Below are positions 13,027 to 59,924 of a stretch of 64,000 bases of DNA, one piece after another. Positions within the stretch are counted from its first letter, which is position 1. Each line of letters starts with the position of its first letter. The stretch spans positions 10,664,501 to 10,728,500 of the forward strand of contig NC_135566.1 in assembly GCF_964340395.1 (NCBI RefSeq), read 5' to 3'. This DNA comes from Glandiceps talaboti. Its lineage: Eukaryota; Hemichordata; Enteropneusta; Spengelidae. The position numbers and the translations under genes were made by a program. Below the pieces are notes generated by a model. The model ran no database searches, was not told the origin of the DNA, and saw only the letters and a program-made list of their open reading frames with translations.

Positions 13027-14613
13027 CTTGCGTGTTAAAGCCTCGGTATGACGTAATGTCAAAGGTTATGAGAATATTCCAAATACTTGGGAATTAATGA
13101 TTACTTTGAAATGTTTGGTTCGGCAGATCACATTCTCACTTTGGGTAAAAATGGTTACAAATCTATTTTTCGAATGAAAAAGTTAAATGCAAAATGTGCA
13201 CTCGTTTTCTTTAATACAAGTTATAGTTATGGGTTTCCTTCGATATCGTGACCACCCCTGTCTGGTGTGTCGAATAAACCATGTCCTTGAAACCCCCACA
13301 AACCATCCGAAGAGCAGTGCAGTGTCTCTCCTCACGTTCTAATGTAATTTCGAATCTTGGTAACAGTTTTTTTTTAATGAAATTCAGCAGCTTAAGGTAA
13401 TTTAGACAACAATTGTAGTGGGTATATGAAAACATCGACCGTATCACGTCACATTTCGGTAGTCTGTTGGAGGATTGTATGACCCAAATAATATGATTTG
13501 CATTTGGACCCTGCACTGAACGTCGGCGAAGCTGAAACAAGGACTCTCGTAAACCGCTTGCACAAGCAATCCTTCAAATCGTCGTGGCGGCCAGGTAGTA
13601 AGTAGATGTAGACAAGCAAACGCCCAACCTACCTTCACTTCTTTGTTTCGATATTTTGCTAATTTATTTTTGTGTTAAAATAATTTCGGCTTTTCACACG
13701 TTGCCAGGAAACGCCCTGGCATTACATATATATAATATATCCATGGATATATTGCACTCCTGATCCTATGCCTGACACACACACACACACACACACACAC
13801 AGTCTCTTCGGTATTGAGAGCATGCAAAGCATGGATTTTTTCAATTAACTATTGTAGTTTTCAAAATGTAAACAAAGGAGTTTCATAAAAATCATCTTAA
13901 AAGTTAATAACTTATATATAATTACTTACAGTCACGTGTGATTCTAATATTATCTATTAAAGAGCACAAAACAGGGTGGTTTTTATTGAGGTCACACAAA
14001 TGTAAATGTGGTATATAAATGGGTGTTAGGTCGTTATGTATATGTAATTGCACATAATACCAGCAACCTTACAGCTCTGTTTACCCATGTTTTATTTGGA
14101 TTTTATTTGCTTACCTTCTTCAAACAAGTAGCTTTGAAGTGACGTGTAATAAAAGCGACTGACTGTACTGTTGTTTCCAGTAGTGAAGACAGAGTTTGAT
14201 GTATTGCATCTGTCTTTGTTAATGAAAAGCGCAGTACAATCAGCCGTAGTCATCGAACGAACGAACGAACACGATCATCGAAGGAGATACAAGGTCACTG
14301 GATTTTTGCATTTTCATTTGGTACCCCATTTCAACATTTATACTGTTGGTAAGATCTTAATGGTATGACTTTTTACTTTATCACAGATAATCACTTGTAC
14401 TTGTAGCCACTATCATCCTTAAACAGACACACAGTTCTGCTGTCAGTAAACCGAGTGTTCCTGTGAGTGAATGTCCGTCGTGTCAGATCTTCTTGTTTTT
14501 CTTATGCTGGTAAACAGTGTTAAACATTACAGAAATTTATTAAATGTTCTAAATGCACGCTGTAAATAGTACATATCAAGAAAGAGCAAAATTTGCATGG
14601 TGAAATAACAATT
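13027..14613. promoter_or_regulatory. Divergent intergenic region, MRPL50 to DGCR8
   Basis: Must hold both promoters and both 5' UTRs. A (CA)n microsatellite lies at 13772-13800. A non-coding first DGCR8 exon could lie here, since the ATG at 14614 is far from MRPL50, but I cannot place it. Open frames at 13211-13638 on the minus strand look like nothing I recognise. Confidence 0.5.
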
Positions 14614-23328
<8,715 letters not shown>

Positions 23329-32300: not shown

Positions 32301-35300
32301 TTGTATCGACATTAAAGTGGCCATATGGATGAGAATTTGGTATTTATTTTGGATTTTTATTTAATAAAACAGCTTCACTATGTTTTTCTACTTGAAAAAA
32401 TAACGTGAAATAACATATACTAAGTCCGTGTTCACATCTCAATAAATGGCAAAACATTAAAGAATGTGTAAAATGTTTGTTATTGTACGTACAATAACAA
32501 ACTTTTTACACTTTTTGCATCTTTTTGCAATGTATTGAGTTATGAACATGGACTTGGTATATGTTCTTTCGCATTATTTTTTCAAGTAGAAAAACATAGT
32601 GAAGCTGTTTTATCACATAAAAATCCAAAATAAATACCAAATTCTCATCCATATGGCCACTTTAAAGATACAGCCTTCCTTTGTATTCATACTTTTCACA
32701 CCTTAGCACTTAATGAAATTGTAGTAATGTGGTGTGGTGGATGCTGGTACTATGTTAATTCAATATTTATCAGAATTTTGAAACTAACAGGAAGTAATAT
32801 GAAAATACCTTTTATCAACAAAAAAACTTCAATTATTGTCTCAAAGATAATGTGAAAAAAAATATGTGGGAAATTCTGAATGGTCAGTTATTACCTGATT
32901 TTTCTGAAATTCAGCCCCAGGTGACTATTTGGAAATAGGGAAATTCAGTATATCAGATTTCAATAAATGTATAAAATGGGTGTGTACAGCATGTTATATG
33001 TGATATTTGAAATAAAAATTGGAAAAGTAAAAAAGAATGGCTGTTTCTTATCTTCGTATGTTTGTATCATAGGGGATGAGACCCAAGAATACGAAGCAGT
33101 AGAGTCTGTGGAGGAGTTCACTACACTGAAAAGATCTCTTTCTAAAGTAGGTAACCTTCATACCATGTATGCAAATAGAGAATCATTGACAAAAGTTTTT
33201 TAAGAAAGGACACAAGAATTTCATCTTATGAAATCTTTTCTGTTTTAAATTGTTATGATGAATGTTACACCATATCATGACGTCTCATCTCATCTGTTAG
33301 ATCATAGTGCTATTTTTTAGTGACAATAATAAATATGATCTAACATATGGCATGTCATGATATGGTTTGCCACACCATATCATATATCACACCAAGCCAC
33401 ACCATGTCATGCCATGCTATGCAACACCATGTCATATCACACCAAGCCACACCATACCATGCCATGCTATGCAACACCATGTCATATCACACCAAGCCAT
33501 GCCATGCCACACCATGTCACATCACATCACACCAATATCATATCACACCACCCATACCACATCAAGCCAAGCGGAAACACACAACAACACACTACACCAT
33601 GCAATGACACACCATGCCAAAACAATGCCATAGCACGCCATGCCACAATATGTCACACCACACCTCATTATTACTATAGTGTATCATTCATATACCATGC
33701 ACCACTATACTATATCCAAATTATACACAATCACATAATACCCAACATTCAGTCTTATAACATACATCTGATCATGTCATTCATCTCATTATATTGAATT
33801 ACCTTTCAATAAATCACAGGTTATTATTTTAAACTAAATACAGCAAGGCATATACATTAGAACCTGTTCCATTTTGTACTGTCACACCCCTTTCTGTTCG
33901 TGATGACTTGCTACATCCTCATCTCTTATTTTCACAATTAAACTTGCATTCACATTCAAATCAGGTCACAGTGGTCGGTCGTCATGGTACCATGATATTA
34001 TACTATCTATGATAATGTTGATTTGATGATAATGATTGTAATCATCATAATCATTGACAGGATCAAGATACTACTGATGAGCCAGCAGCCAAGAAAACTA
34101 AGTCTATCACGAAAGTAGAACAAGAAACATCAGAATCACCACAAGGGAAAGATACTTCACCAAAGCAAGCAGCAGATTGTACAGACAGTGCAGAAGGCAA
34201 GAAAGTAAAAGATGTTGGTCAAAAAACAGGTATATGCTTGAACCAGATTCATATTATTAACCTCAAATTGAATATATATGTTATAACTAGGTGAATTTCA
34301 TAGTTTTGTGCCAGCATGGTTTGCAGTATGTGTGTGTCAAAGGTCATTGAAAATGTATGGGCCATGGACAAGACTAGTTCTGCTGAACTATTTCCATGGT
34401 CAACATCAGATAACAATTATGTATTTCTTTTGTATTCATTTTGTATATTTGTATCATATGCATGTTCTTTGAAAGTGTTGCTTATTTCTGTTATCTGGTG
34501 AAATAAATTTCATTCATTTGTTTGTTCATTCATTCATTCATTCATTCATTCATTCATTCATAGTAGATGACTAACTTCTAAAGCAGACATAGATTTGAAG
34601 TAAATTGCCTGGGAGTAAACAGAAGAGTGTTAATTAAAATGACAGTCTTTTCCCACACAGAGTCATCCAAGGAAGATAGTCGTAACAGTTCTACAAAATT
34701 AGAGGAAACAGAAAAGGAGACAAAATTGCCAGCAGAAATTCCAAAAACTGATGAAGCAAAAGAGTGTAAAGAGACAACAAAGGTATCAGATACTGGTGTA
34801 CTTAAGGAAATGAAAAGTGGAAGTACGAAAGGTGATGGTGATGGAAAAGATACCGTGGCAAAGGATGATGGCAAAGATACCATGGCAAAGGATGAAATGG
34901 AGGAAGCATTGCTATGTGGAATTTGTCAAGATATCTTGCATGATTGTATCAGGTAATTATCAAAATACATGTATGAAAGTGTTTGATTTATTTAGGAACA
35001 ACAGAACTGAGGATCAATACTTTGATTTGTTGTACAATGGTAGCAATGATCCAAGGTGTGTCCAAATCACCACATCAGTGTTATGCAATTTAGAAGGCTC
35101 AAATGAGATTTGCGGTCAAAGACTGAAAGCTGGGATAAATTATAGAGTATCATAGTACTCAGCTAAGACTCTCTGGGCTTTTATCATTCATTATTTTAAT
35201 AAGATATATTTTCAAACAAAAAACCACACAACTGTGTTCTTTGTGTGAAATGAACTTGGCAGACTGACTGACTGACTGACTGACTGACTGACTGATCGTA

Positions 35301-38300
35301 AAACAGTCAAATGAACATGTATACTCCTTGGGAGACTACTAGTAACTGGTAAATATGTTTTTTTTTAAAGTTGAAGACATTTTCCTTTACAACACTAGAA
35401 ATGAATGATAAATTCCAAACATTTGAAGATAGTGAGACTTAAAAAAAAAAATCTCTCAAGGGACTGGTGCCAGTCATAATTCAGTTTTCCTACAATGTCA
35501 TTGTACTATTTAACAGAAATGGGTACTTGGTTAAAGTCTGTGCAATGTAACTGTACTCACATTATTTTGAGACCATTTTCAATATTCATAATTTCTCTTT
35601 ATTTGATAGTTTACAGCCTTGTATGCATTCATTCTGTGCATCATGCTACTCACCGTGGATGGAACGAGCTAATGATTGTCCTTCTGTAAGTTTTTACTTT
35701 TAATGTGTTTTTATTAATTCTTGTACACCTATCTCACAACTTGTTGCTGCCATTTCATCAAAAGAGAAGTCATGTGCATTGAATGCCCTCTCCTCATTTC
35801 CATTAAAAGTTATCAAAATCCTTGACATTTGGCTACATAGTAACAAGCATTGCAATCTAGTGGGAATAAATATGCATATATTAGCATACATTATACTATT
35901 CATCATTACATGTTGAGTTGCTTTACTACTACAAGTACACTCTCAAACATCTGAAATTAGCATATCTTACCACTATGCAAATGATATGCAAATGAGTATT
36001 TCACTGTTAGCAAGAAATCCAAAATGGCGGACATGACATTTCAGTTGTATGAATATATGCCCATCACCAGCCATTTCCTTTGTTCTGTGTTACCAGATTT
36101 GGGGCTTCAGACTGAATGATTCATCATTATCAACACTGTCAATCAACCCCATTTATGCTACAATTGCTTCCCATTTGAAAGAGCGCCCTCAGTAACATTT
36201 GTTGTCTATTGGGAATAATGATTAGTCTCTGTGAATTTATTCTCTAAATAGTGGAAAAGTTTGTGAGATCTGTCTGCAATATTTTTTAGATTGTATCATT
36301 GTAAGAAAAATTTCTTGCATTTACATATTTTGTTGCATCCTGTATAAGATTATATTAACAGAGTTAGTTTGGTATTCATCTTCAGTATCTTACCTTACAC
36401 TGTCTGTCTTTTATCCACAGTGTCGTAATAAAGTGGCACGGATTAGTCGCAATCATATCATTAATAATTTGATAGAAGCTTACTTGAAAGAACATCCGGG
36501 TAAGTTGATGATAGAAATACCCTGCCCTCCTCCCCCATGCCCCCCCCCCCATGCCCCCCCCCCTCCTCTAAGGCTAACTGTTTGTAAAAGTACCACAGCA
36601 GGAACATTTCACAATCCTGACTTACCACTCACTGATTGTCGGTACTATTATATCAAGTATAAAGTTTCAGTTCGTGAATTTAGAAATCTAATTTTTACTG
36701 TTTCTACACTTTTTGTAGCCTGCTTGGTTACTGCACTATTGACATACGTTGTTACCTGGACATACCTCCTAGCCTTATAGCCTGTTTACTGCACTGTTGA
36801 GATACATCATTAGTTGGTCGTACCTCCTAGCCCTCGTATTCTCTGCTTGTCTTGATTACATTGTCAAAACTGATAATAAATTATTTGAATTTTTTCACCC
36901 AATAGCCTGGCCGATGACATTGGGCAGTTCCAACAGCCATGACAACTCATCAGACTATTATTCATGAGCAAATTATGCAAATGTACGTCATGCATTCCTA
37001 AGTGTAGGCAAAGCAATATTATGGACATGTAGTGGACATGTGATAATTTACATGTTATTTACATATGATTATGTAAATTTAACATACCGATTTTGGTAAT
37101 GACTTTTGGCTCGGGGTGTGGCTATATTAACTTTGAAAGCGTAGTCAAGACAAGTGAAAAGTTCATTAATCTCTGACCTCATATACTAAATGATGGATCC
37201 ATGTTATACAATATGTGATTATAATTTATTTTTTTAGAAAAGAAAAGAAGTGATGAAGAAATCAAAGAACTTAATTCAAAAAATAAAATTACAGATGACA
37301 TGGTGAGTCAAATGTGGCATAATTTGAAATAATAAGTGATAATTTATTAGATAATTACCCGTGATTACTTGCACTGGTGTGCATGTATACTAGTGGTATT
37401 TGCATTAGAGTGCAATATCGATAATGTTATATGCACACCTGTTTACAAATGATATGCAAAGGGGTGCACAATCGTTCCTCGTACATGAAATCATGCAATC
37501 ACACAGTGTGATTTTTACAGAAATCTACTCTTTCGGATAAACGTATATATGTAATGATAACAGAACCCCCATGCCATGATAGTTCCAGTGTGGGTACCCA
37601 GGGGTATTTGCACTCATGCTTGCATTGTTATCTGCTACACTTTCACTCACTATACTAGTGAAAGTACGGGTGCAGAGAATACTGCAAGCACACATGCAAA
37701 TACCCCTAGTATGCCACACTTGCACTCATACATCATAGTGTTCTGTCATAGTATATCTATGAACAGTACCAGTTATTAGATTATTAACTTGGGTTTTGAT
37801 GTTTCATTTAATATCCAATCTTAACTTACGGCGAAAATAAAACAAAACAAAAAATAGACACACAGGTTTCAGTTTGATTGCATCAGATTTGTTATAAATA
37901 GATGACGATAGCCACTTGAAAAGTGACAGCATGTTGAATTTACCATATTCTAAATAGTTCAGTTTGTGATGGCTGTGTTTGTATGTATTTTCTACAGATA
38001 CAGCCGAAAGTAAGGCGTCGATATTCAGATGAGTGGGACAGTGATGAGGAAGAAGAGGAGGAAGAGGATGATGATGATGATGGTGAAGATGGCTGTCGAG
38101 TTGACGTGTAAGTAATTGCAACCCCCCCCCCCCCACCCTCACCTCCAAAAAGAAGGAAAAAAGTGTGTGTGTGTGGGGGGGGGGGTTCCAATCTATTGAA
38201 AACTTTCATAGCAGATTAGGATTACAAAATCAAATTTGAGTGAGATAAAAAGTTTTGAGACCAGCAGTTGGTCCTTTACAACTCCACTGATATGATAGCT

Positions 38301-41300
38301 ATATCTAATGTGAGAACCATGGACTGAATCATGGGCCTTTAAATACATGGAAGCTATAACAAGCCATGAGAAGTAAATATTAGTTAGAAGGAACAAGGCG
38401 ATACTGGTTTTGGTATTAGCTACACTTCATTATGCTTATATAGGGGACCTTATATAGGGGACCAAGAAAAGTCATTTCCACTGACCCTGAAACACCCTGC
38501 TTGTCTATTGAAAATAGAGTTATATAATTGCCAAATCTTGCTTAGATGTGGAATTGGTGACAATGACTGCTGGGTTCCTATAAAGCATAACATAATGATG
38601 CTAAGATAAAATCAACCTTGCTTTGCATGAGAGAGGTGGTAAGTAACCACAAAACAAACCACTAGACTTTCAGTTCAAGACAAAGTAACCACCAGTAATA
38701 TAATATATTGTGAATTGGAATTTTACAGACCTGCATTTGGGTTTGGAGCCAGAGTGATTAATGCTGTAGGGGGACTGTTTGGATTGGGTATGGTCAGGTA
38801 ATGTATAATAATCATATAATCCAGTATAGTCACAAAATAACAAAATTTGCTCTGACTAAATGCAAGAATTAGACAGTATCATGTCTAAAGGAAAGAGATG
38901 TGAGAACAAAATTGAAAATTTTCCAAGAGACATCTGTAGAGACTCTTAAGTAAGGAGAGGACCAGGGCATATATGCATTTATATTGTCATTAGCCCAGTC
39001 TTAGGTAGAAGGTTTATTTGTACAAGAAAGAGTATGTCTCAGCTAACAGTTTGTGTATATCTGTATAGACCACCACAAACAATATGCAGACAGTGTCCAG
39101 GCAATGTTGCCAAGGTAACTAGCACCTCGACACCAACCATAACAACATCAACTACTACAGTTAGTTTGGCAGCGACAACAACCACTGCAGCTGCAACAAT
39201 ACCAACAACACAATCCAAAACTACAGCACCAGAGAGAGGCAAAGATGAAACATCAACTGCTGCAGCCAGTACAACAATGCCAGCTGCAACAGCTGACAAG
39301 TCGAAAGATGTAGAAATTCAACCGTCTTCATCAGCAGGACCATCTACGTCTACAGCTGGTGATGATGCAAAACCATCTACGTCTGATGGTGGTTCTGGAA
39401 CTACCCCAGCTGCTGAAAATACTAGAACTACTCCAGATGGTATTGTAGTTAGAATGCCAGTACCACTACAGTATGTATGCGCTCAGAATCAAGTTCATTT
39501 GATGTGTCTGTGTTGTAAGCAGGCCATGCCAGATAGGAGAACTGAAGCCACTACCAACCCAGAAATTCCTGCACAACAATGTGAGTGTTTTAATACATAA
39601 AGCCCAACATTAGTCTGTTTAATCTCAAAGCCTCCAAATCCTATGTAAAATATAGTTATCATTTCAGGTAATGTTCCATCTTCAACTAAATGTCAAACAG
39701 AATGAAATTAAGTTTTTAAGATGATTTCAGTATTTAGGTTGTTTATGTAAAAAAAAATGAATTCTGTTGTTTGAATGTGCTATAAATCTTTGCAGCTTTT
39801 CAGTCTAACTAAAAATATTGCTGGTAACTTTGGCCTTTTCATTTGTTCCATTTTTTTTTTGTTCCATATATTGTATTTATTGACATAAGAAAGTATAATT
39901 TTAAATTTATGTGTTACTTTCGGTCAAATTCACATAAAATATATGGAAATATCAAAATCTATATCAAGTTGACAGAAGACATTGGTTCTGTGGTGCTCGA
40001 AAAAATGAGTTAAAATGTTCCAAATTATTATTTTTTACCCAAGTTTTTCATAAATTATGAAATATGAGATACAATTGTATTATTACCCAACATTTTATTC
40101 ATTGGCCGGAAAATACTTGTGACTTCACTTGAGGGTTTTGTCATTGCTTGTCTTGCAACTCGTAGTAACAAGACCCCTTAGGTCACTCATTTTTTCCTTG
40201 GCTGAATGAAGAAATATATTGGGGAGTAATATCTAATTGTAGAATCTTTCCTAAGGGGGAATTTAATTTATTTTTTCTGTTCCTTGCAGGTGATATTTGT
40301 TATAGAGGTTACTGTCACATGTACTGGGGATGTAAACGTGTAGACTGCTATGGTTGTTTGAATCATTTTAGAGGTACGATTTATACTCGAATGTTTGTTT
40401 TTTTCACTCTCAACCACTTTGCTGTATTAAAGTCAAAGTGATAAAAAAAGACACCCTCAAAGGCTGAATTGCAATGACTTCATTAACTTTATCAGTAAAA
40501 ATTTGTGTTTGGAACATCTTATTCAAATCATAGATCTTTATAAACTGTCCTGATAAATCATGAAATGTGCTGATTTGTGTAGTTTACTTCTAGTTCTACA
40601 CTGTGTTCATTTTAGTTTTAAATTTCTGATTTTTGTCACGTTTTCATTTGTTTGTATAAAAAATATTTCTTGTTTTTTTCAACTTTGTATTTGAATATCT
40701 TTTATTGCTTTACATGGATGGAAATTACCATTCCATAAAATGTTTATACAATATATGTATTTCAAAGTACATAGTGTACTCTAATTCACTACTTTTAACA
40801 ACATCAGTCTTATAACCTGTGCAATGGCAATCCATCACCAATCAATCCATACTTGTGCAAGCTCAGGCGAGGGCCTGTTGTCATTGTTTACATGGCTACC
40901 ATAACTGTTTATTCATTCATTCATTCATTCATTCATTCATTCATTCATTCATTCATTCATGATCCATCCATTCACTCACTCATTCATTCATTCATGATCC
41001 ATCTGTTCGTTCATGATCCATCCATTCACTCATTCATTCATTCATTCATTCATTCATTCATGATCCATTCATTCATTCATTGATCCATCCATCCAGCCAT
41101 TCGTTCATTCATTTCTTCGTTGTTTCATCCATCCATTCAATCAATCAATCATTCATCCATCCATCCATTCATTCATTCATTTATTCATTCATTCATCCAT
41201 CCATCCATCCATCCATCCATTCATCCATTCAGATTAATTATACATTCAGCCAATAGAGGGCAGTCTTCGTGGAGCAACATGCATGGTATATTCAACATTT

Positions 41301-44300
41301 TGTTCAACAATATAATCTGTACAAGCCAATTGTAAACACTTGAGAAATCAAATTAGCTTAGTGTGAAGAAATTATTGAACAATATTAATATTATCATATA
41401 ATTGTTGATCTTCAGAGGATATATGACGTGACTAAATTAGCATATAGATGTCAAACTCAAGTTGTAATTTTGTTTGATTTTTCTAGATATGAACTTTGGA
41501 AAAAAAAGTTTAGTAAACATAATAAATGATAATCATTTTGAATCAGAAATATTTCGGGTAAGTACTTTATTTGATTTGTTGCAATCTCATTCATCTGAAT
41601 TACTCTTATAAATGACTGTATATTTGTTAATGGCATATAAATTGTACACACCGATTAGTACAGAAAACCATCTTTCAGCCACCAACAATCTAATGAAAAA
41701 ATTATACAATTTTGGTCTTCAGTACATCAATGGGTTCTGTAGTGAAAGTACAATACATTGTATTCCGATGATGTGTAAGCTAAAAATATGTACATTCATA
41801 CTTCAGACATGTTTTGAGATGGTCTTGTAACAAGACCTGGGATCTGTGCTAGGAAGGTTGCTGAACAAAAGTTGAGGATGACAGTACCACTGGGCAAGTC
41901 CTGACAGCACCTTTGGTGCTATGTGACCTGTGGTCAGCCACTTTGAAAGTTAACAGAATTGCCTGTAGGTCTAGCAGCTACTCTAGTTTTAGATAACTAT
42001 ACAAATACATGTTTATTTCCTTTTATTTCGTCTTAAATATACATTATTTTAATTGCTTTTTTTTTTCCTTTTTTTGTAATTCCACTAGAACTACATGGAA
42101 GACCAAAAATTGACAGTGACAGATGTTTTAACAGAATGTCTTGCCAGACTAGATAGGGGAGAATACGTTAGCACAGGTAGATTATGGTTTAATGATAACT
42201 ATTATCAGAATGTGTTGGGAATATATCATTATTGTCATTGTATGGCATCCAATGTATCACAACCACAACAACAACCATTAGTCATCATCATGAATATCAC
42301 CATGACTACCACTAATACAGCAGAAATGCATTCAGATTCCATGATTTGATAAGAGCCAATTTCAAATGAACCAGCCCCAGGTATATGATATAGATCTGGT
42401 TGCACCCATCCACTGTAAAGTATTACTTACACTAGTTTGATAGATGTTGGATAATTATCTTAGTTTTTGTTGATGTGTCTTTGTGAATGTGATTCTTTTC
42501 AAACATGTTTGATCATTGAAACTAAACACAATTATAATTTCTGCTGTAATTACTGTAATAATTTATCAAACGTGGCCATTTATTTTCAAAAAATCAATCG
42601 ATAAATTCTTGACAAAATTAGAGCATACAGTACATAGCATGACATTAATCTTTACAGTTTCGTGACAGTTTATTGCACCTTGTTTTTTTCAGATGCTCAC
42701 AACTTCAGAGGCAGGAAGGGTTCAGATGTGAGAATATGTTATCCATGTGGTCTACGGAACTTGAAAGAACTAGCTTATCAATTCAGAAGAGATATCCCAA
42801 GAACTGAACTTCCAGGTAAGTGTAACCACAGTATATGTGTAACACAAACATACAGCCATAGTAATCGTATCTATTAAGAATTTCTGTACCATAAAGTAGA
42901 CTTGACATTTTTGTCTTAGTGTCTACGTCGTGCCGAGTTTGAACTTGAACAATGATCCATACACAAGTTCCCATCATAGATTGAGAATTCAACATGTTTT
43001 TGAACAAATCACTTGTCCTTCTTCAGTGTGTAACTGAATCTGACAGAATGATCCAAATTTGCTGAAGGTCAGTGTTTAGTGCTTCCATGATGAACATACA
43101 CACAATACTGATCTCTTCAAAATAGTACCATGTCACATGATGTGTGTTTACTACGCTGACCTCTGTCAAAACAAATTTCAACTACTGGTATTTGGGAATG
43201 TTACATGTATTAACAGCAAGTGTGTTAAAGGTCATTACACAGAACAGAAATAATGATTAAAGAAAGGTATCATAAATTAGAGCTATGGTATATGGTTTAT
43301 GAAATGAATTCAGAGGTCTGTAATATGAAAAACAGTAAAAAGTATTTGAAATCTACATATTTTTTGCATTTTTATTTTGGTAAATAAAAACTAAAATTTC
43401 CAGTTGCCTTCACACAAAATGAAGTGCTAAAACAAGCAGTTTCCTATCAGTATATATTGTACTTTGTGTCACTCTAATTTAACAAAATTCATTTATATAT
43501 CTTATAGTAATATTCATTGATATATATTTTCAGGTACCGTTACTTCAAGACCTGATTGTTACTGGGGTAAGAACTGCAGGACACAGAGGAATAGGCCACA
43601 CCATGCTGCGTAAGTTGACTGAAAATAGTTGAGTTTTGAACTCAGTCAAATGGTTCCAAGAAACTAGTACAGAAATCATGCTATACTAAAACTAGGATGA
43701 ACACAGACTAAAAGTACATGTTGATGTAAGCTATCAATAGACATTAATGTTATTACACTCATAGTAGGGTGGTGTCTCTAATAGTAAGCTTTCCTCAAAT
43801 GGCTGACGCCATTCAGCCTCATTCAGTGTTTATACTATGTCAATTACAGGGTAATTATATCCACATAACCATAACACACTGTCGGCTATCACCCACTTGT
43901 GTAAATTTACCATACCTGCAAGTAAATTACAACTAGAAAGTGTTTTCATGAATCTAAGCCCTATTAATTAAATCTCAGAAGTCAAATAAATTTCAAGTCT
44001 GGTGTGTTTGTTTTGATGGATATGTACAGTAGGAATGTAGAATTGCATTCAGTAACTGCAACAATGGGATCTCATTTGTAATTCAAGATTGTCATTTTCT
44101 ATGACAACACATCAATACCTCCCCCCCCCCCACCCCCACCCCCCACCCCCCAACCATTAGTATTTACATTGAAATCTTTTGAAAGCAACATCATTTCAGA
44201 CCACTTTTGTGTATGGGATTACTTGACTAATCGCTTCCTTGATGCATATCAGATGAAATGTAAGAAACCTTTATATAAGAAAACAGCAACTTGAATGAAA

Positions 44301-44674: not shown

Positions 44675-45078
44675 TATGTATGTATGTATGTATGTATGTA
44701 TGTATGTATGTATGTATGTATGTATGTATGTATGTATGTATGTATGTATGTATGTATGTATGTATGTATGTATGTATGTATGTATGTATATAATGTATGT
44801 ATGTATGTATGTATGTATGTATGTATGTATGTATGTATGTATGTATGTATATAATGTATGTATGTATGTATGTTGTATGTATGTATGTATGTATGTATGT
44901 ATGTATGTATGTATGTATGTATATAATGTATGTATGTATGTATGTATGTATGTATGTATGTATGTATGTATGTATGTATGTATGTATGTATGTATGTATG
45001 TATGTATGTATGTGTGTGTGAGTATGTGTGTGTATGTATGTCTGTATGTATGTATGTATGTATGTATGTATGTATGTA

Positions 45079-45113
<35 letters not shown>

Positions 45114-45370
45114 ATGTATGTATGTATGCATGCATGCATGTATGTATGTATGTATGTGTTTGTGTGTGTGTGCATGCATGCATGCTTGTATGTATGTATG
45201 TATGTATGTATGTATGTATGTATGTATGTATGTATGTATGTATACGTGTGTGTGTGTATGTATATGTGTATGTACGTACATACATGTGTGTGTATGTATG
45301 TATGTATGTATGTATGTACGTACGTACATACGTACGTACGTGTACGTGTGTGTGTGTGTATCTATGTATG
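44675..45370. repeat. (TATG)n microsatellite, about 700 bp
   Basis: Long tetranucleotide tract with small interruptions (tataatg, ttg) and a right part mixed with (TG)n, (TGCA)n and TACG. It begins about 250 bp after the CHFR stop codon. It creates open frames of up to 242 codons on both strands that are not genes. Confidence 0.98.
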
Positions 45371-46109
45371 TATTGACATCACATATTTTAGTTGATTAGA
45401 TGGAAATTTATTTGATGGAGGATTTGTTTTGCAGATTTGTGTTGATTTGATTTAATTTGATTTGATTTGATATTTGTGACCTGGAACACACTCTTAGAGT
45501 TGCAGTTCATGTTTCAAGATCCATACTTTTGAAATGTCAGTTGATGTCAAATTCTTCTTCCTTATAAAGACACCTATGCTGCACATTCTGCACAGTACTA
45601 CTTAGAGCAGTAAATTGTCCTTATATCATTTACAATGCAAGTATAGCTGAATTTGCTAATTAAAAATAAATACAATATTGACTATTTTGTTTTGAAATGA
45701 TGTTTTGTGTTTTTGCTAAGGTTTTAAAACTCTCAGTAACAGAAAAGGGTAGATCCAGTAAAATGTGTATAGATTTCCATACCTTGTTATACAATAAGTT
45801 TGTAGGGGAACCCTGGTAAAATACTAATACCCGGAGTAGATTTCTCCTAGTTAACACTCTTAATTAAAAAATACTAGTACTCTGACATTACTAGTGTATA
45901 AATTGAGGATCATACCAAATATTATGAAGCACTGATGATAGTTGAATTACTCTTTTAATCCCGTTATTGGTAGAATGTGCTTGGGGAACAAATTTTCCTG
46001 AAAATCAAAGGTCTTAATATCCCTCCAAACTTTGACATGTGTAAGCTTTGTTTGTTGTCATTTACACAGTATTCGATGGCCATATTGGATTCTAAGATGT
46101 CTTCATTTT

Positions 46110-46491: not shown

Positions 46492-46611
<120 letters not shown>

Positions 46612-47246: not shown

Positions 47247-47270
47247 GTTGTGTGATCGACCATTTCCACC

Positions 47271-49057
47271 ATGGCGTCCTCCTGGGCATATAATACTAGT
47301 ACAACAGGTACGTACTCTACGGTTGCAATTGTCTTTTTTAAATTATTTCTCAGCCGTCAGGTAGAGAAATTATAATAAACGTTACAGTACATTCAGCATA
47401 CGTTCACCTGGGAAGATTGAATTCTTAAAGCACACAGTACAGACTCTGGCTGAAAAGAAGGCGTCATTTTGTTCATAAAATAAGAACAGGGTTATTTTAC
47501 ATAGTATTTTGGGTTTAACGAAATTATCGAGAACATTTTTTCAAAATCATATATAATTTTGAACAAAGATAGGGGTATGTGACTCGTATGTATTATATCA
47601 AAGTTTATATTTTTTGTTGCCTGATACTTGTTTATAGGAGGAGGGAGAATTATATTTACGCCCACATTTCAGCAATGTAGAAATGTTCGATGTTATTGTT
47701 AGAATGGCAGTGAAACACTAAGTCTACTTTGATTTCATATACATATCGATAATTATGAATAATCATGTAGAATGATACTTGTCAGTACCTAGAAATCTTG
47801 AACACCGTGTGTATATTGAATGATTATCTGGCCCATGTATTTTACAAAGATTACTGTTGAATCTATTTTTATGCTAGTGTCACAGATGACATATTTATAT
47901 TTTCAGTAAACTTAATATTTTAACAACATCGCATGTCCTAGTTTGACTGAAAGGTCAATAGACTGTCTCAAGGATATCGGATTTAGACCACACAGGATTC
48001 CAAGCATACTCGAATACATGAGACGACGGTCTGCATTTCATAAATATCTAGGATTCATAGTGATCATTCATCAATGTTTTAAAATTACTTTTAGGGCATT
48101 ATAACGCCCGTGAAAACTCTATATGGAGTGCATTAATTATTTGGCCATTGGCCATGCGTTATGTATATTTAGACTTTAAGGAGGTCACAATAAAGCACAC
48201 TGGGGACGGACAGGCACTTCAGATTTGGCAAGAGGACTTGGCTTCGCGGGAAGTCAATGAACGAGGCACTATGCTGGGTGCTTGCCTTGTTTTCGAGTGT
48301 AGATTTACACACAAACTGTGTAGTCTGAGCTAATTCCCTTTAAAGTTCAAGTGTGATCCTGGTACGTACATACAGAAGTTGAGTCAGATATGAGATATGA
48401 GAGTGATTCGGGTGTTATTACTTGGTCTATCAGCTGTGTGCGAAGATCAGTAGTAATACTAGCAAAGTATGCATGATATCGCTCCTTTCATTTCATTTCG
48501 CTTTAATTTCTGCTTCATTGCTCGCCTCCATTTGTCAACAACCAGTACATGAGTAGGGTCAGTATTTACATTATTGTAAACATCATAGCAATTCTGGGCA
48601 CAGCCTGTTTACGGCACTTACAGTATATTCAGTGTAATAACCCTCTCCCCCCCCCCCCCACCACCACCACTTGAGTATGGGTTCGTAGAATATACCATCG
48701 CCATAACAGGCTATTCCGGGTACAGAAATGAGTCCACTGAACTTTGATGTGATACAGGTCCCCATCCGTACTGTGTGATTAGTGTACGATTTTCTCTAAA
48801 GAAAACCCGTCATATACATGTATCCATAGGCAGCTGCAGTGGATAAGAAATTAGCTGATATAAATCTACTATCTTGACAAAAAATCGATTTTAAAGCAAA
48901 ATCTCAGGTTAACGCGGAATAAGCTTACCGTGTTTGAAAAAATCACAAGCACAGTGGTTTTGAGTGGCAAAAAGTCAAAATTTTGAGTTCGCCCGATAAG
49001 CTTATTTCCCTCACACGCAAAGACAGGTTTGAAAAATCAATGTAATTTCAATTCTAG

Positions 49058-49092
<35 letters not shown>

Positions 49093-52000
49093 TAAAGATA
49101 AAGGGAGATTTTGCGGAATCCGCTCAATTTCTCTTTTATTCGAAAACTGTTTTCAACTATCACCGAAATGTAAATTCTACATCTAAAATTAGAGTAATTA
49201 TGTGAATTTTCGTCTGCAGCTTGTGAATGTACATGTCCAACCTGTAACAAAGTGTTAAAGAGCCGACAAGGAGTGCGAGACCACAGTCATGTCAAACACA
49301 ATGTGTGCAGATTGTGTGACACAAAGTGTTCTCCACCTATGGATCTGCATTTGCAAAATTGTCACTCGGTCTATTTTGCTGCTCTGCCTCTGGAAAAGAG
49401 AAGGTAGGGAATATAACTCACAATATGGTGACACGAGAGATCACAATACACGGAATATGCAGTCTCCATTTGACCGCACCATTTACTAGTAACATTATAT
49501 GACACCGACAATGCTATATTTTGCCCTCTTGCTCAATGCCTTGAAATGACACTATTCATTGACAAATGACATTTTTGAAGTTAACCTACATAACAGATAC
49601 ATTTTAGGTCCTCTGAAGGGAGACTATTACAATGGGCTCCGTCCGTCCTTGCATGTGTAACTCGCCGTATAAATACGTCATTTCTCAGATATGTAATGTC
49701 CGATTTCTTTCAAACCTAGCACAAATGTGGCATGTCATGTGGGTTATATGCATGTCACTTACTCAAAAACGTCAGTAAAAAGAGATCCCAATCAAGTGTC
49801 TCTCACATATCATTTGATGTATACTTACTTTTGAGACATTGACTTTTCACCTTGACTTTGACCTTCGGGGTAAACTATCGAAATCCAGCCATTTGCTGTT
49901 GTATGTCACCGACACTTTGCAGTATTTGTTTTGCCACTAATTTCTTTTAAGTGATGTCACCATTCAGTCACATATAGAAGCAAAGTATTTGAGGGGACTG
50001 TGTCTTCTACAAAGAGTTGTTCTATGATACCACAATGTCTCTAGTAGAGTATATAATCTTTTGAAATTGTAGAGATGACACCGGTTATCTAATGATTTTG
50101 ACTGTCTACCAATATCATCCAACTAAATTGTAAGCAATTATGTATCCAAAATATTGTTGATGTGTTTTGAGTAACTTGGTTTATTCTGCTGGTTGCACTG
50201 AATGAATAGTCTATTCAATGGGTTGTAAATATTCAGTGACAAGAGCATGTTGTCATTCTCAGGCTCAGGAGAAGAAGAAAGTCAAAGAAGAATATAATTA
50301 GACCTATAGCTCTATCATGTAAAAATCAAAGAACCCACCCTTGTCCTATCACGGATTGTAGTAAGGTATGCAGAGGAGCTAAAGGGTTGCTGGACCATAC
50401 ACGAGATAAACATAATGGGAGTTCACCTCCTGCACGCCAGAGTCCTCTATTTTATTTTCCACCGGCATTACAAACCAGTATAGCAGCAGAACAATGGGAA
50501 GGAACAGGTACAAAGACCTATCACTTATTTTTTTAACAGTTTGTAGTTGATACATTTTGCTGACCATCAGTAAATCAGAATGGAGAGTCTTTTGTGGGTT
50601 GGGGCTAAATTTCGAAAGAATTTTAGGACAATTCAAACGTTGTACATTTAAGAGTTGATTATAAATGAATTGGCTTGCATGACGTCCGCAAGTTTGACGG
50701 TTCAAACGTTATTTTACAGGACATTCAAAATTAACTCGTCACAAATTTTCCATAACTTTATCGATATTCAACTCTGTATTATACTCGACCCACAACACTA
50801 CATCACATCAAGTCTGATGGTAATTTAGATAATTAATTCTTTGACTAATTGTGTTCTAGGTTTTACTGCAGACTTTCTTCAAGGAAATCCCAATTCATTG
50901 GAAAGTTTTGTTGTCGAAGAACTTCAACCAACGGAAGAAACCAACCGTCAAGCCCAGGACTGTGTTCAACGTTTAGTAACCCTCCTTCAACACAATGTTG
51001 ATTATAGTGTGAAACGTGTCGTTAAGGTAAATTTTGTAAAGCCTAGTCACATATTTTATTCAAGTAAATCACGAAGTTGAACAACAGAACTGTTACATGA
51101 CTAGACACGTGTACATGTGAGAGCTAACGACATCACTCTACTGTGAATTCCAAGTGTCCATTGATAAATAAATGTCAATTTGTCAAAGTAATGGCTTTGC
51201 CATGTCTGTCTTAGCTTGTTGAATAAACCTGGCCACTGTAATATTAATAATAATATCAATGTATATAATTTGGAAACATATTGTAAGTCTATACAAACGC
51301 GATTTATCGCTGTGTGTAAAGTTCCTGGAAGATGACACTGTGTTGGTGCAAACTCAAGACCACTAAGTCTTGTAAAAAGTGGTCGGAGGTGCATGTTCAT
51401 CGCCTTGCATATTTTGTTTTCTTACAGTCTGGATCCTTTGGAAAGGGCACCCAGGTGAAAGGATTCGCAGATTTGGACTGTGTAGCCGTCCTCAATAATA
51501 TCAAGGATTTCAGAGAATTGAAAGATAAACGAAAAGACATACTTGACAACTTAGGAAAAAAGATAGAAACCAACTGGCAGGCCACAGTCGAAATCGAGAA
51601 AGAGACCACATTTGCTGTACAGTTCGGAATGACGGTTGGAGGGGAGACAATGAAGGTTGACCTTTTGCCGACTTTTGATGTATTGAGACAAAAAAAAACA
51701 TTGAAAGGTAATGAATCTAACATTCATTTATCAAATTATTTAGTTATTTAGTTATTTATTATACAACATGTCAGAAAAACAAATTCGCAAAAACAGTATC
51801 ACCAATTCGGAATTTTAGCAAACTTCATACATTTGGTAAATCCATGCAATACTACCCTGAGTAAACTCTGAGATAGAGGCATGACATGTCGGCCACTGTA
51901 CTTGACCAGAAACATTTTGTAATATGCATTTCAATGGAATAGTCCAAGTTCACGTGATTCCCCCACCAGTCGTCTGCGTAACTTGAACACTAATCCCTCT

Positions 52001-52923
52001 TGTTTTCCTTTCTAACAACAACAATGCAGAAGTGTATAGAGACATACTGTCGACAACTAGTTCTAATCAACAATTCTATTCTGCCGCACTCTGCCAATAC
52101 CAAATTGAGTTTATCCAAAAACAGCTAACAAGAGTGAAGAATCTAATTCGACTTGTGAAATACTGGAATAAAAAGGTTGTCAAGAAATTGGCACGTCATG
52201 GTGAGAAATATCCGACATCTTACCCAATGGAGCTGATTACAATTCATGTTTGGGAGAAGGCTGGGGAGCCGTCTAGTTTCGACATGGCCATGGCTTTCAA
52301 AGCTGTGTTACATCGCCTTACCAACTATCAAACTATCCGAGCTGTTTGGTATGATAATTATGATGCAGAAATGGCATCAAAAGGAATGATTGGGATGAGA
52401 AGGTGGGTTCGTCACTATTTAAGTTTGTTTGTACCTTTAATTTTTCGTAATATTTGGTCTTTAGTCTGTATATAGCAAACACTTAATAATAATATGCACA
52501 AAATTAACAGCACGTTATACTAATTTTCACTGTTACTTACTAGTATGTCATGGCAAATACTGTTCATTTTCAAAATATACATGTGGAAATATGGACATAT
52601 TTAGTATGGTGGCCCCTATACTAGACTTGAAAGCGGAATGCTTAACAGTAGTCATAAAACCATTAATCGATGATACACGAGTGAATGAATTCGATAGGAG
52701 TTTATTGATAAAATTGATAGCCTTAGCACACCGGTACAATCACTTAATTACAAATCCATTTTCTTTTTCTGACAGCCCTATTCTTCTGGATCCCGCAAAC
52801 CCAACCAACAATGTGTTTTCGGCAAGCACACCAGATGCTCTGGATCATGTTGCAGACATTGCTAGGGAAACGACGAACAAGCCACTGCTACGAGATGTTA
52901 AAGTCTTTTGGCCTTGGATTTAG
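47271..52923 (+). CDS. 2'-5' oligoadenylate synthetase with N-terminal C2H2 zinc fingers
   Basis: Seven exons: 47271-47307, 49220-49403, 50263-50507, 50860-51026, 51428-51707, 52030-52402 and 52776-52923. They total 1434 nt, giving 477 aa, with every junction GT/AG and in phase. Residues 1-155 carry three C2H2 fingers: Cys18/Cys21/His34/His39, Cys42/Cys45/His56/His61 and Cys101/Cys106/His119/His124, with a basic stretch RLRRRRKSKK (74-83) that could be a nuclear signal. Residues 156-477 are an OAS core: LQPTEE start, P-loop-like GSFGKGTQVKG, catalytic Asp226 and Asp228 (FADLD) and Asp289 (KVDLLPTFD), then VKNLIRLVKYWNKK, SYPMELITIHVWE and PILLDPANPTNNV, all counterparts of OAS1 motifs. OAS enzymes, when switched on by dsRNA, polymerise ATP into 2'-5' oligoadenylates; in vertebrates these activate RNase L. 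Fingers ahead of an OAS core are not a family architecture I know. The exon 1 assignment is supported by the matching first exon of the paralogue. Confidence 0.88.
48602..48712. mobile_element. Short TIR element in intron 1 of zinc-finger OAS
   Basis: Begins AGCCTGTTTACGGC..AGTATATTC and ends in the inverted GAATATACCATCGCCATAACAGGCT-type sequence. The interior holds a poly-C and (CAC)n run. The ends match those of the element at 56681-56984. About 111 bp and non-coding. Confidence 0.6.
49058..49088. repeat. (ATCA)n microsatellite
   Basis: About seven units in intron 1 of the zinc-finger OAS gene, 130 bp before the first finger exon. Confidence 0.95.
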
Positions 52924-53047: not shown

Positions 53048-53110
<63 letters not shown>

Positions 53111-53165
53111 TACATACATACATACATACATACATACATACATACATACATACATACATACATAC
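53048..53165. repeat. (CA)n-(CATA)n microsatellite
   Basis: About 57 bases of CA followed by about 60 of CATA, 125 bp after the stop codon of the zinc-finger OAS gene. The paralogue has a shorter (CA)n at the same place (59975-60007). Confidence 0.97.
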
Positions 53166-54598
53166 ACACATACACATACGGTATTTATGCAGAAAGGTGT
53201 GTGAGAAAATACCAGTACACAGTCATTCTAGTAATCTAGTCAAATCAATATGTAAACATGATTTTAAAGTGTCTGGAGGATTTTTACATGAAAATATTTC
53301 CTTTAAATTTATAATCCAAGCACTTGCCCTTGCAAATGAAATACGTTTCTGAAAAATTCAAATTATTGTGTTTGGCCTGAAATCACTGAGAATTTCAGAT
53401 ATCTTCAAGATGCCAACAAAATTTGTGTGTGTTGTTTTACAATTAGGAAGAATCGTGTTATTGGTACTCCTTTCTGAAAAGCAAAGACTATTTAGAATTA
53501 TTCATAAACTTGGTTTTAGCCATTTCATTTCAAATTTCTTATCAGCCAATTTTGCCGTATCTATCATGAGCTGTATTATTTGTGTGGTCAAGAAAGTAGA
53601 TTGACAGATCAGCCGTTGAGGGCGTGGTGTAATCTCCCTTTCCTAGATTAGGGCAGGCTGATAAGCCCTGACTGATGACGTCATTACGGTCTATTAAGAA
53701 AGGTGAATCTAACTTATACAGCAAGCTTTACAAGAAATTGAGTTATACCATAGACCACATTGGTGGAGGGTCTATGGTTATACAAAGTCAACATTCAAGG
53801 ATTTCATATTTGTATAATTTTTATTCAATTTCTGTCAGTGTATCATGCTGTCATTGACAGAACATAGCTCATCTGTACTTTACCATGTGATTTAAAAAGT
53901 AATTTTTCAGTGCCACTAAAGAAGTGTGTAATACTCTCTCTATAAGTTATTGAAACGCTTTTAAACGCAACTAAAATCACTGAATGGCTTACAAATATTC
54001 TAGTAAAAATATCAAAAATATTAAATATATGATTAAACGTATTCGGTTTTTATGAAATGTGATCATTCTGTCATGTAAAGTGAGGGACATTGTAGAACAT
54101 GTAAACCTGTATTAGTTATCTTGCATTGTATTGCTTTAAATTTGATATCAAAAGTTGGCTTGGTACATCCAACTAAGTGGTGGACAAATACATGTACATT
54201 CTTGTAAAAAGCATGTTAGCTGTCACAGTGCAACATGGAGCATCTAAGGAATTCAAAGCAATTTACTGTGTGTCACAATTGTTTACAGCATAGAATTGTA
54301 TAAAATCGTATGTATAGAATAAAGTATAAATGATGAACCAAGAACATGATTGCTCAAAGTATAATCAATATCGGTGAAAAAATATTCGGTATTGAGAACA
54401 AAAGTTCAATTTGTGACAATATAATCAATACTAGTATGTAAATAACGTTATCATCGGAAAGCCACAAAACACTGTCTAAATCTCATGACAAGCTAAATAT
54501 AGTAACAGCTGTGTGATGATACAATTCACTGTCCTCTGTTGCCTTTTCTTTAACTGGCAAATTGAGTACATATTAATATTCAGAAGGGTAGATTTTAA

Positions 54599-55152: not shown

Positions 55153-55195
55153 GGGTTTTCCCCATAAAAGACATCGCAGGTTCTATTCTCTTTCC
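55153..55195. promoter_or_regulatory. Motifs ahead of OAS paralogue matching those of its neighbour
   Basis: GGGTTTTCCCC (55153-55163) and ATTCTCTTTCC (55185-55195) stand in the same order as the kappaB-like and IRF-element-like motifs ahead of the first OAS gene. Both copies here deviate by a base or more from the strict consensus. Confidence 0.3.
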
Positions 55196-55198
55196 AAC

Positions 55199-59924
<4,726 letters not shown>

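Follow-up and report, generated by a model that had tools for sequence, protein, structure and literature searches.

A gene joining C2H2-type finger motifs to an OAS core in the acorn worm Glandiceps talaboti, with parallel architectures in corals and bivalves

The virus-sensing enzymes of the 2'-5'-oligoadenylate synthetase (OAS) family are described as consisting of one to three OAS units, to which OASL adds ubiquitin-like domains, and vertebrate OAS1 is not known to have fingers or a basic N-terminal stretch. In the enteropneust Glandiceps talaboti, a stretch of 64,000 nucleotides of contig NC_135566.1 (positions 10,664,501 to 10,728,500; this whole stretch is here called the window) contains a gene at 47271..52923 in which three C2H2-type finger motifs and a strongly basic stretch precede an OAS core. 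With vertebrate OAS1 (PDB 4ig8, 1px5) the encoded protein shares the predicted core fold, the Asp triad, the GS-KGT motif and the OAS1_C domain, but it has I330 and Q334 where OAS1 has R195 and K199 in its groove for double-stranded RNA (dsRNA).

Zinc fingers are also found together with a nucleotidyltransferase-like fold in ZFR, which in this respect resembles the Glandiceps protein, but the DZF domain is not known to be active as an enzyme, whereas the Glandiceps protein keeps an intact Asp triad. A place in the DZF family (ZFR/ILF3) was rejected, as DZF_N reaches only 17 bits, below its cut-off of 27.1, and the NF90-NF45 chains have a template modelling (TM) score of about 0.5 by target length, compared with 0.82 for OAS1. 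cGAS and the cGLRs are CD-NTase enzymes that sense nucleic acid, and cGAS has a zinc-binding insertion, but this zinc site lies inside the core and is not an N-terminal finger array. The cGLR/Mab21 family was likewise rejected, as there is no Mab21 among the seven Pfam families matched at E up to 10, and Cv-cGLR1 has a TM score of only 0.56 by Foldseek. Fusions of cGLRs with ankyrin repeats and death domains are described for corals in the excerpts available of PMC9980059, and they are a parallel to the finger-bearing OAS in another family.

Among the papers listed in searches of 5.39 million open papers, a body without most subscription papers and bioRxiv, no published finger-bearing OAS was found; neither "zinc" nor "zinc finger" occurs in the available excerpts of PMC6307210, PMC10732462, PMC9980059 and PMC8476169, and those of PMC9334734 report no OAS in Aplysia and contain only unrelated passages on zinc. 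The statement of the first-pass annotation that no finger-bearing OAS is known thus holds for the open papers listed, but not for the databases, in which there are entries from corals, mussels and oysters. What is new is an OAS variant in which known parts are combined in a single gene, and this variant is already visible, unnamed, in databases.

Gene structure, OAS core and finger motifs

The gene consists of seven exons:

47271..47307, + strand: exon 1, MASSWAYNTSTT, with phase 1 at its end, homologous to the paralogue exon 55199-55223
49220..49403, + strand: exon 2, with finger 1 (C-x2-C-x12-H-x4-H) and finger 2 (C-x2-C-x10-H-x4-H)
50263..50507, + strand: exon 3, with finger 3 (C-x4-C-x12-H-x4-H) and, before it, the basic stretch KRRLRRRRKSKK, which starts in the last part of exon 2
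50860..51026, + strand: exon 4, OAS core
51428..51707, + strand: exon 5, OAS core with the GS-KGT motif and D226, D228 and D289
52030..52402, + strand: exon 6, OAS core with the OAS1_C domain and I330 and Q334 at the positions of OAS1 R195 and K199
52776..52923, + strand: exon 7, the last exon of the OAS core, ending at the stop codon

The splice model has GT-AG borders and compatible phases throughout, and it gives a protein of 477 residues without any internal stop. The NCBI protein "2'-5'-oligoadenylate synthase 1-like", encoded on this 23.5-Mb contig, is the same 477-residue chain with 100% identity over its full length; this annotation is independent of the first-pass annotation, yet it may itself be a prediction. 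Each finger exon ends inside a codon (phases 2 and 1), and the reading frame runs on into the core; both the in-frame fusion of these exons between first exon and core and the Asp triad at 226, 228 and 289, which the first-pass annotation had claimed, are found as described. Judged from its sequence, the finger-bearing OAS is a real single gene, with the fingers in frame with an OAS core that looks catalytically intact.

In profile searches the core matches OAS1_C with 111 bits (Pfam cut-off 19.9), and SMODS (27.1 bits, cut-off 26.5) and NTP_transf_2 (21.2 bits, cut-off 21) are just over their thresholds. Of the GS-KGT motif, G213, S214, K217, G218 and T219 are kept, and the best solved relatives of the protein by sequence are OAS2, OAS1, OAS3 and OASL. 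In an AlphaFold2 model based on a 41-row alignment, each block of ten residues from residue 161 onward has a mean predicted local distance difference test (pLDDT) value of 85-98, and a Foldseek search with this model ranks human OAS1 (4ig8) first, with a TM score of 0.82 by target length, the top ten hits all being chains of OAS1, OAS2, OAS3 or OASL. The core is confidently predicted to have an OAS fold with an intact catalytic triad. It is 75% identical to the core of a finger-less tandem paralogue, and over 318 codons the nonsynonymous and synonymous divergence (dN and dS) of the two cores is 0.154 and 0.541 by NG86 and 0.170 and 0.420 by YN00; as dN is below dS, the gene pair is on average under purifying selection.

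In the N-terminal part, fingers 1 and 3 have C2H2 spacing and the usual hydrophobic positions of the C2H2 pattern. As corrections to the first-pass annotation, finger 2 is two residues short of that pattern and no finger reaches a Pfam cut-off. All twelve Cys and His residues of the three motifs are intact and the reading frame is open. The stretch KRRLRRRRKSKK between fingers 2 and 3 is basic in 10 of its 12 residues, and the net charge over the N-terminal 155 residues is +16. A chance occurrence of the motifs was rejected: in the six frames of the window a strict C2H2 pattern gives 6 matches, of which 4 fall on these fingers (finger 1 is matched twice) and the remaining 2 in repetitive-looking sequence, while a looser pattern gives 17 matches, of which again 4 are these fingers. 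Open stretches of 183 and 243 nt in a fixed frame, like those of the two exons, occur at 5.0% and 2.5%, respectively, of 20,000 random places of the window each. The fingers are described here as divergent C2H2-type motifs that may bind zinc.

Finger-type motifs before the core in other animals

The first-pass annotation implied that the finger-bearing OAS stands alone, which is contradicted by protein searches in which C2H2-type or C2H2-like motifs precede the core also in corals and bivalves. Among 42 proteins found in a search with the full Glandiceps chain, 15, Glandiceps included, have a C2H2-type match upstream of the OAS core, and in the 41 rows for which the core motif was located no such match follows it. 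Besides Glandiceps, the carriers are the stony corals Porites lutea, Porites harrisoni, Porites lobata, Porites evermanni, Montipora capricornis and Montipora foliosa, the octocoral Dendronephthya gigantea (three proteins), the oyster Saccostrea, the mussels Mytilus galloprovincialis and Mytilus coruscus, and two unnamed records, and a profile search (46 proteins) adds proteins of Saccostrea and Crassostrea virginica in which the same bivalve motif was read by eye. Two of these fusions (P0025 and P0031) lie on contigs of 1578 and 1369 bases that are barely longer than the reading frame and look like transcripts. Among the related proteins, P0014 of Porites harrisoni carries five fingers that resemble one another in front of its core, hinting at a possible internal duplication, and P0006 of Porites evermanni apparently has two OAS units in one chain. 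Two contigs of a viral collection encode weak relatives of the core with 22% identity, which were left out of the comparisons.

The coral proteins of Porites, Montipora and Dendronephthya, known from database entries only, resemble the Glandiceps protein in the position of their C2H2 fingers N-terminal to the core and, in three of five proteins of the octocoral clade (P0025, P0027 and P0029), in basic patches like KRRLRRRRKSKK after the fingers. They differ in having 1 to 5 finger matches per chain and cores that belong to other clades. In the Pfam scan, Porites P0015 is above the cut-offs for zf-C2H2_4 and zf-C2H2_jaz (the dsRNA-binding JAZ finger), whereas none of the other nine proteins in the same scan reaches a finger cut-off, and the domain lists of the databases name C2H2 families in 3 of the 42 proteins, all from Porites (P0011, P0014 and P0015). 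The OAS-like proteins of oysters and mussels (Crassostrea, Saccostrea and Mytilus) share with Glandiceps one motif before the core, but as its spacing is C-x2-C-x14-H-x4-H and as there is no Pfam finger match in the two proteins scanned (P0032 and P0044), this motif can be called only C2H2-like.

Within the Anthozoa finger stretches look homologous: a finger pair of an octocoral and one of Montipora align over 45 ungapped residues with 40% identity (BLASTP E 3e-8) and none of 300 shuffles that preserve Cys and His is as good; finger-bearing OAS is therefore old within this group. The Glandiceps fingers stand out weakly in comparison with two Porites proteins, with only 3 and 6 of 300 shuffles as good among 36 pairs tried. 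When the partner is a stretch from the octocoral, Montipora or a bivalve, more than 15 of 300 shuffles are as good, and by this comparison homology with the coral fingers is not demonstrable.

The presence of fingers seems to go along with a difference in the dsRNA groove of the core, a link that was noticed post hoc and is suggestive. According to the excerpts available, human OAS1 carrying R195E or K199E retains 3% or 0.4%, respectively, of its activity on a viral stem-loop RNA, and its binding is no longer detectable (PMC3961380), R195, K199 and K205 are named as groove residues (PMC6019448), K66, R195 and E233 are discussed as an allosteric link (PMC11359028), and among charge swaps in the groove K66E weakens dsRNA binding, while swaps abolish function in OASL (PMC4446440). 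Mapped via human 4ig8, K66 corresponds to K217 and E233 to E372 in the Glandiceps protein, whereas R195 corresponds to I330 and K199 to Q334; K60 of OAS1 is kept as K211. Of the 41 alignment rows just 9 have a basic residue at the R195 position, but at the K199 position there is one in 19 of the 22 rows labelled finger-less and in 5 of the 19 labelled finger-bearing; the three finger-less exceptions are P0006, P0039 and P0033, the last of which is a short isoform from a finger-bearing Dendronephthya gene. With 34 rows of the tree described below, K or R at position 334 is found in 16 of 16 finger-less and 5 of 18 finger-bearing rows (Fisher p 9.8e-6, with kinship ignored), the finger-less rows including porcine OAS1, which was set by hand. 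In both counts P0021 was taken as finger-bearing, as it is C2H2-like by eye, although its motif is unmatched by the pattern and it is labelled finger-less in the tree; P0027, in which the pattern misses a partial finger, was counted as finger-bearing throughout, and P0017, which is cut at its N-terminus so that the last part of a finger is still visible, does not enter the 34-row count. All six finger-less hemichordate rows have a basic residue at the K199 position, and of the seven rows only the finger gene is without it. This distribution suggests that the finger and basic module may take over part of the RNA capture.

Tandem paralogue and origin of the module

Downstream of the finger gene lies its finger-less paralogue:

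56113..59924, + strand: finger-less tandem paralogue with exons 56113-56128, 57452-57612, 58367-58643, 58980-59358 and 59777-59924, exactly as in NCBI isoform X2
55199..55223, + strand: putative alternative exon 1 of the paralogue (MASWAATT, with phase 1 at its end), a homologue of the finger gene's first exon

The paralogue starts 2.3 to 3.2 kb downstream of the finger gene, and its NCBI isoform X2 begins with another first exon, 56113-56128. The homology of the first exons proposed by the first-pass annotation is matched by exon 55199-55223, since in a blastn comparison of the two genes exon 1 and its flanks are homologous (47263-47444 with 55191-55412). The homology ends at 47444 and restarts shortly upstream of the first core exon, at 50835 (57413 in the paralogue), and between these positions there is only a single inverted match of 32 bp; only one of the two genes thus has the finger stretch. 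The combined length of exons 2 and 3 is 429 nt (184 and 245), and both outer borders are in phase 1, so that the pair has the symmetric form that is expected of a shuffled exon block.

In a maximum-likelihood tree of 35 cores, the finger gene stands beside its finger-less tandem paralogue (support 100/98), and both are inside a hemichordate clade (100/100) whose other six rows have no fingers. The Glandiceps fingers for this reason look like a separate gain. A single clade of all OAS labelled finger-bearing was rejected by the approximately unbiased (AU) test (p 1.4e-54), and parsimony on the finger labels gives 6 changes with the labels of the tree and 4 with those of the K199-position contrast. 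A gain of the fingers in the Glandiceps lineage is the simplest reading, and the direction of change would then be gain in one copy and not loss in the paralogue. A third, more distant OAS gene of Glandiceps on another contig has no finger exon in the 9,991 bases upstream (+ strand, another C2H2 pattern); its NCBI model (P0010) seems N-terminally incomplete and omits a first core exon that is present in the DNA.

As to the source of the module, a recent donor gene in the same genome (assembly of 590 Mb in 47 contigs) was rejected, since apart from itself the finger stretch matches there just eight places, none better than E 0.09 (10 candidates scored), and in the protein search it matches no other protein at E up to 10. 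Introns 1 and 2 contain repeats. In intron 1, the 581 bp at 47878-48458 recur at 95-97% identity in at least 39 other places of the genome (best 40 of 330 candidates), and among the matches listed six pairs of copies are 3.0-3.3 kb and three pairs 7.4-7.5 kb apart; with CTAG directly flanking it on both sides, as read by eye, this element looks like a solo long terminal repeat. The intron between the finger exons contains an older dispersed repeat at 49601-50038 with about 70-85% identity (best 40 of 1297 candidates). The repeats represent mobile-element activity around the module and do not show how the fingers came. A framing of the module by inverted repeats was rejected as well, as neither of the two short ones present, with 73-75% complementarity, frames both exons.

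Elsewhere in the window, long microsatellites are numerous (58 rows of the tandem-repeat table, some of them overlapping), for example at 44675-45373, 46495-46609 and 53048-53176, and Rfam has no match at the gathering threshold. Open frames at 14566-16498 may resemble DGCR8 with a WW-like stretch, an identity that the Pfam scan, which gave only a sub-threshold WW match, did not confirm, and those at 34582-42874 may resemble a CHFR-like ubiquitin ligase, for which the Pfam scan gave no support.

Possible roles of the module

The best explanation, with chances that appear about even, is an OAS in which part of the nucleic-acid capture has passed to an N-terminal module of fingers and basic stretch, gained by one tandem copy. 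A hemichordate nucleotidyltransferase of the OAS type would have acquired this module through a pair of exons, in phase 1 at both outer borders, in the intron that separates exon 1 from the core exons. Synthesis of 2'-5' oligonucleotides is most likely still the activity of the core, and the module most likely supplies or tunes the binding of nucleic acid, probably RNA, or local concentration, and would thereby share the job that vertebrate OAS1 does with the groove of its core. The new ligand range or nuclear location that the first-pass annotation proposed would be a hypothetical effect of the fingers.

Several observations weigh against this explanation. The Pfam scores of the fingers are far from the cut-offs (zf-met 11.0 bits with a cut-off of 21.2, zf-C2H2 8 with 25.2), which is why they are called C2H2-type motifs and not certified Pfam members. 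In the AlphaFold2 model fingers 1 and 2 mostly have pLDDT below 50, and finger 3, with block means of 68, 76 and 55 for its helices (about 55-76), is the sole finger modelled with some confidence; exon 2 folded alone has a mean pLDDT of 54 with a helix at 21-32. The best solved chain for exon 2 is a zinc finger protein at a non-significant E of 0.023, the ten matches at E up to 10 being mostly zinc-finger or similar nucleic-acid-binding proteins together with two virus capsid proteins, and for exon 3 it is ZIC3 at E 0.67, also non-significant. The finger stretch has no other protein match at E up to 10 (89 candidates, within the length and word limits of the search). The correlation at the K199 position is post hoc, and of its three independent pairs, too few for a sign test to reach significance (p 0.5), an average of 1.8 fit it and 0 contradict it. 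Finally, the single Ribonuc_2-5A match in the Glandiceps genome is IRE1 (5 candidates scored), and RNase L as a downstream effector was rejected in a search that could miss a divergent RNase L split over exons; an RNase L output can thus not be assumed.

Alternatively, the module could be a device for targeting or protein binding, with the basic stretch as nuclear localisation signal, the fingers docking partners and the groove of the core still sensing dsRNA. C2H2 fingers often bind proteins, KRRLRRRRKSKK resembles a classical basic localisation signal, and the conservation of OAS1 K60, K66 and E233 also fits; but with I330 and Q334 at the R195 and K199 positions, the core groove alone looks weaker, and this alternative is possible but clearly less probable than a role in capture. 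Rather unlikely is an origin of finger-bearing OAS before the divergence of animals, with many losses and the Glandiceps copy as survivor. Such an ancestry would account for finger-type motifs in Cnidaria, Mollusca and Hemichordata, for the seemingly homologous finger pairs of an octocoral and a stony coral, and for the two Porites proteins with which the Glandiceps fingers rise above shuffles, but it requires repeated loss in hemichordates and echinoderms, and the comparisons with octocoral, Montipora and bivalve stretches do not stand out in this way.

The sub-threshold scores, the short finger 2, the low model confidence, the absence of fingers from the other six hemichordate OAS of the tree and the repeats in the surrounding introns would also fit degenerate fingers, i.e. 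a captured exon pair that is translated, contributes little and is functionally near neutral. This is still less likely, because all twelve Cys and His and the frame are intact, because open stretches of this length are rare in the window, and because two further phyla have architectures of this type. Very improbable is an annotation artefact in which gene prediction joined two transcripts: in its favour, no second copy of the finger exons occurs among the genomic candidates found, but the exon borders and phases are all compatible, the NCBI protein is identical, the finger exons run from mid-codon ends into the core, and similar fusions are encoded on the contigs of P0025 and P0031, which look like transcripts.

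More tentatively, the capture of ligand recognition by an N-terminal module may apply beyond Glandiceps, and there might be a recurrent, unreported class of nucleic-acid sensors in at least three phyla, with an OAS core, C2H2-type fingers and often basic patches, partly of independent origin, in which the core tended to lose a dsRNA groove residue because recognition had moved N-terminal. An N-terminal finger module in corals, bivalves and an acorn worm would mean that in invertebrate OAS ligand recognition evolved through the capture of domains, and the parallel fusions suggest that animals have more than once equipped OAS with another means of recognising or reaching its target. In this respect the Glandiceps pair, two tandem genes in one genome with and without the module, offers a natural experiment, in which it is directly testable how the module affects RNA binding, activation and location.

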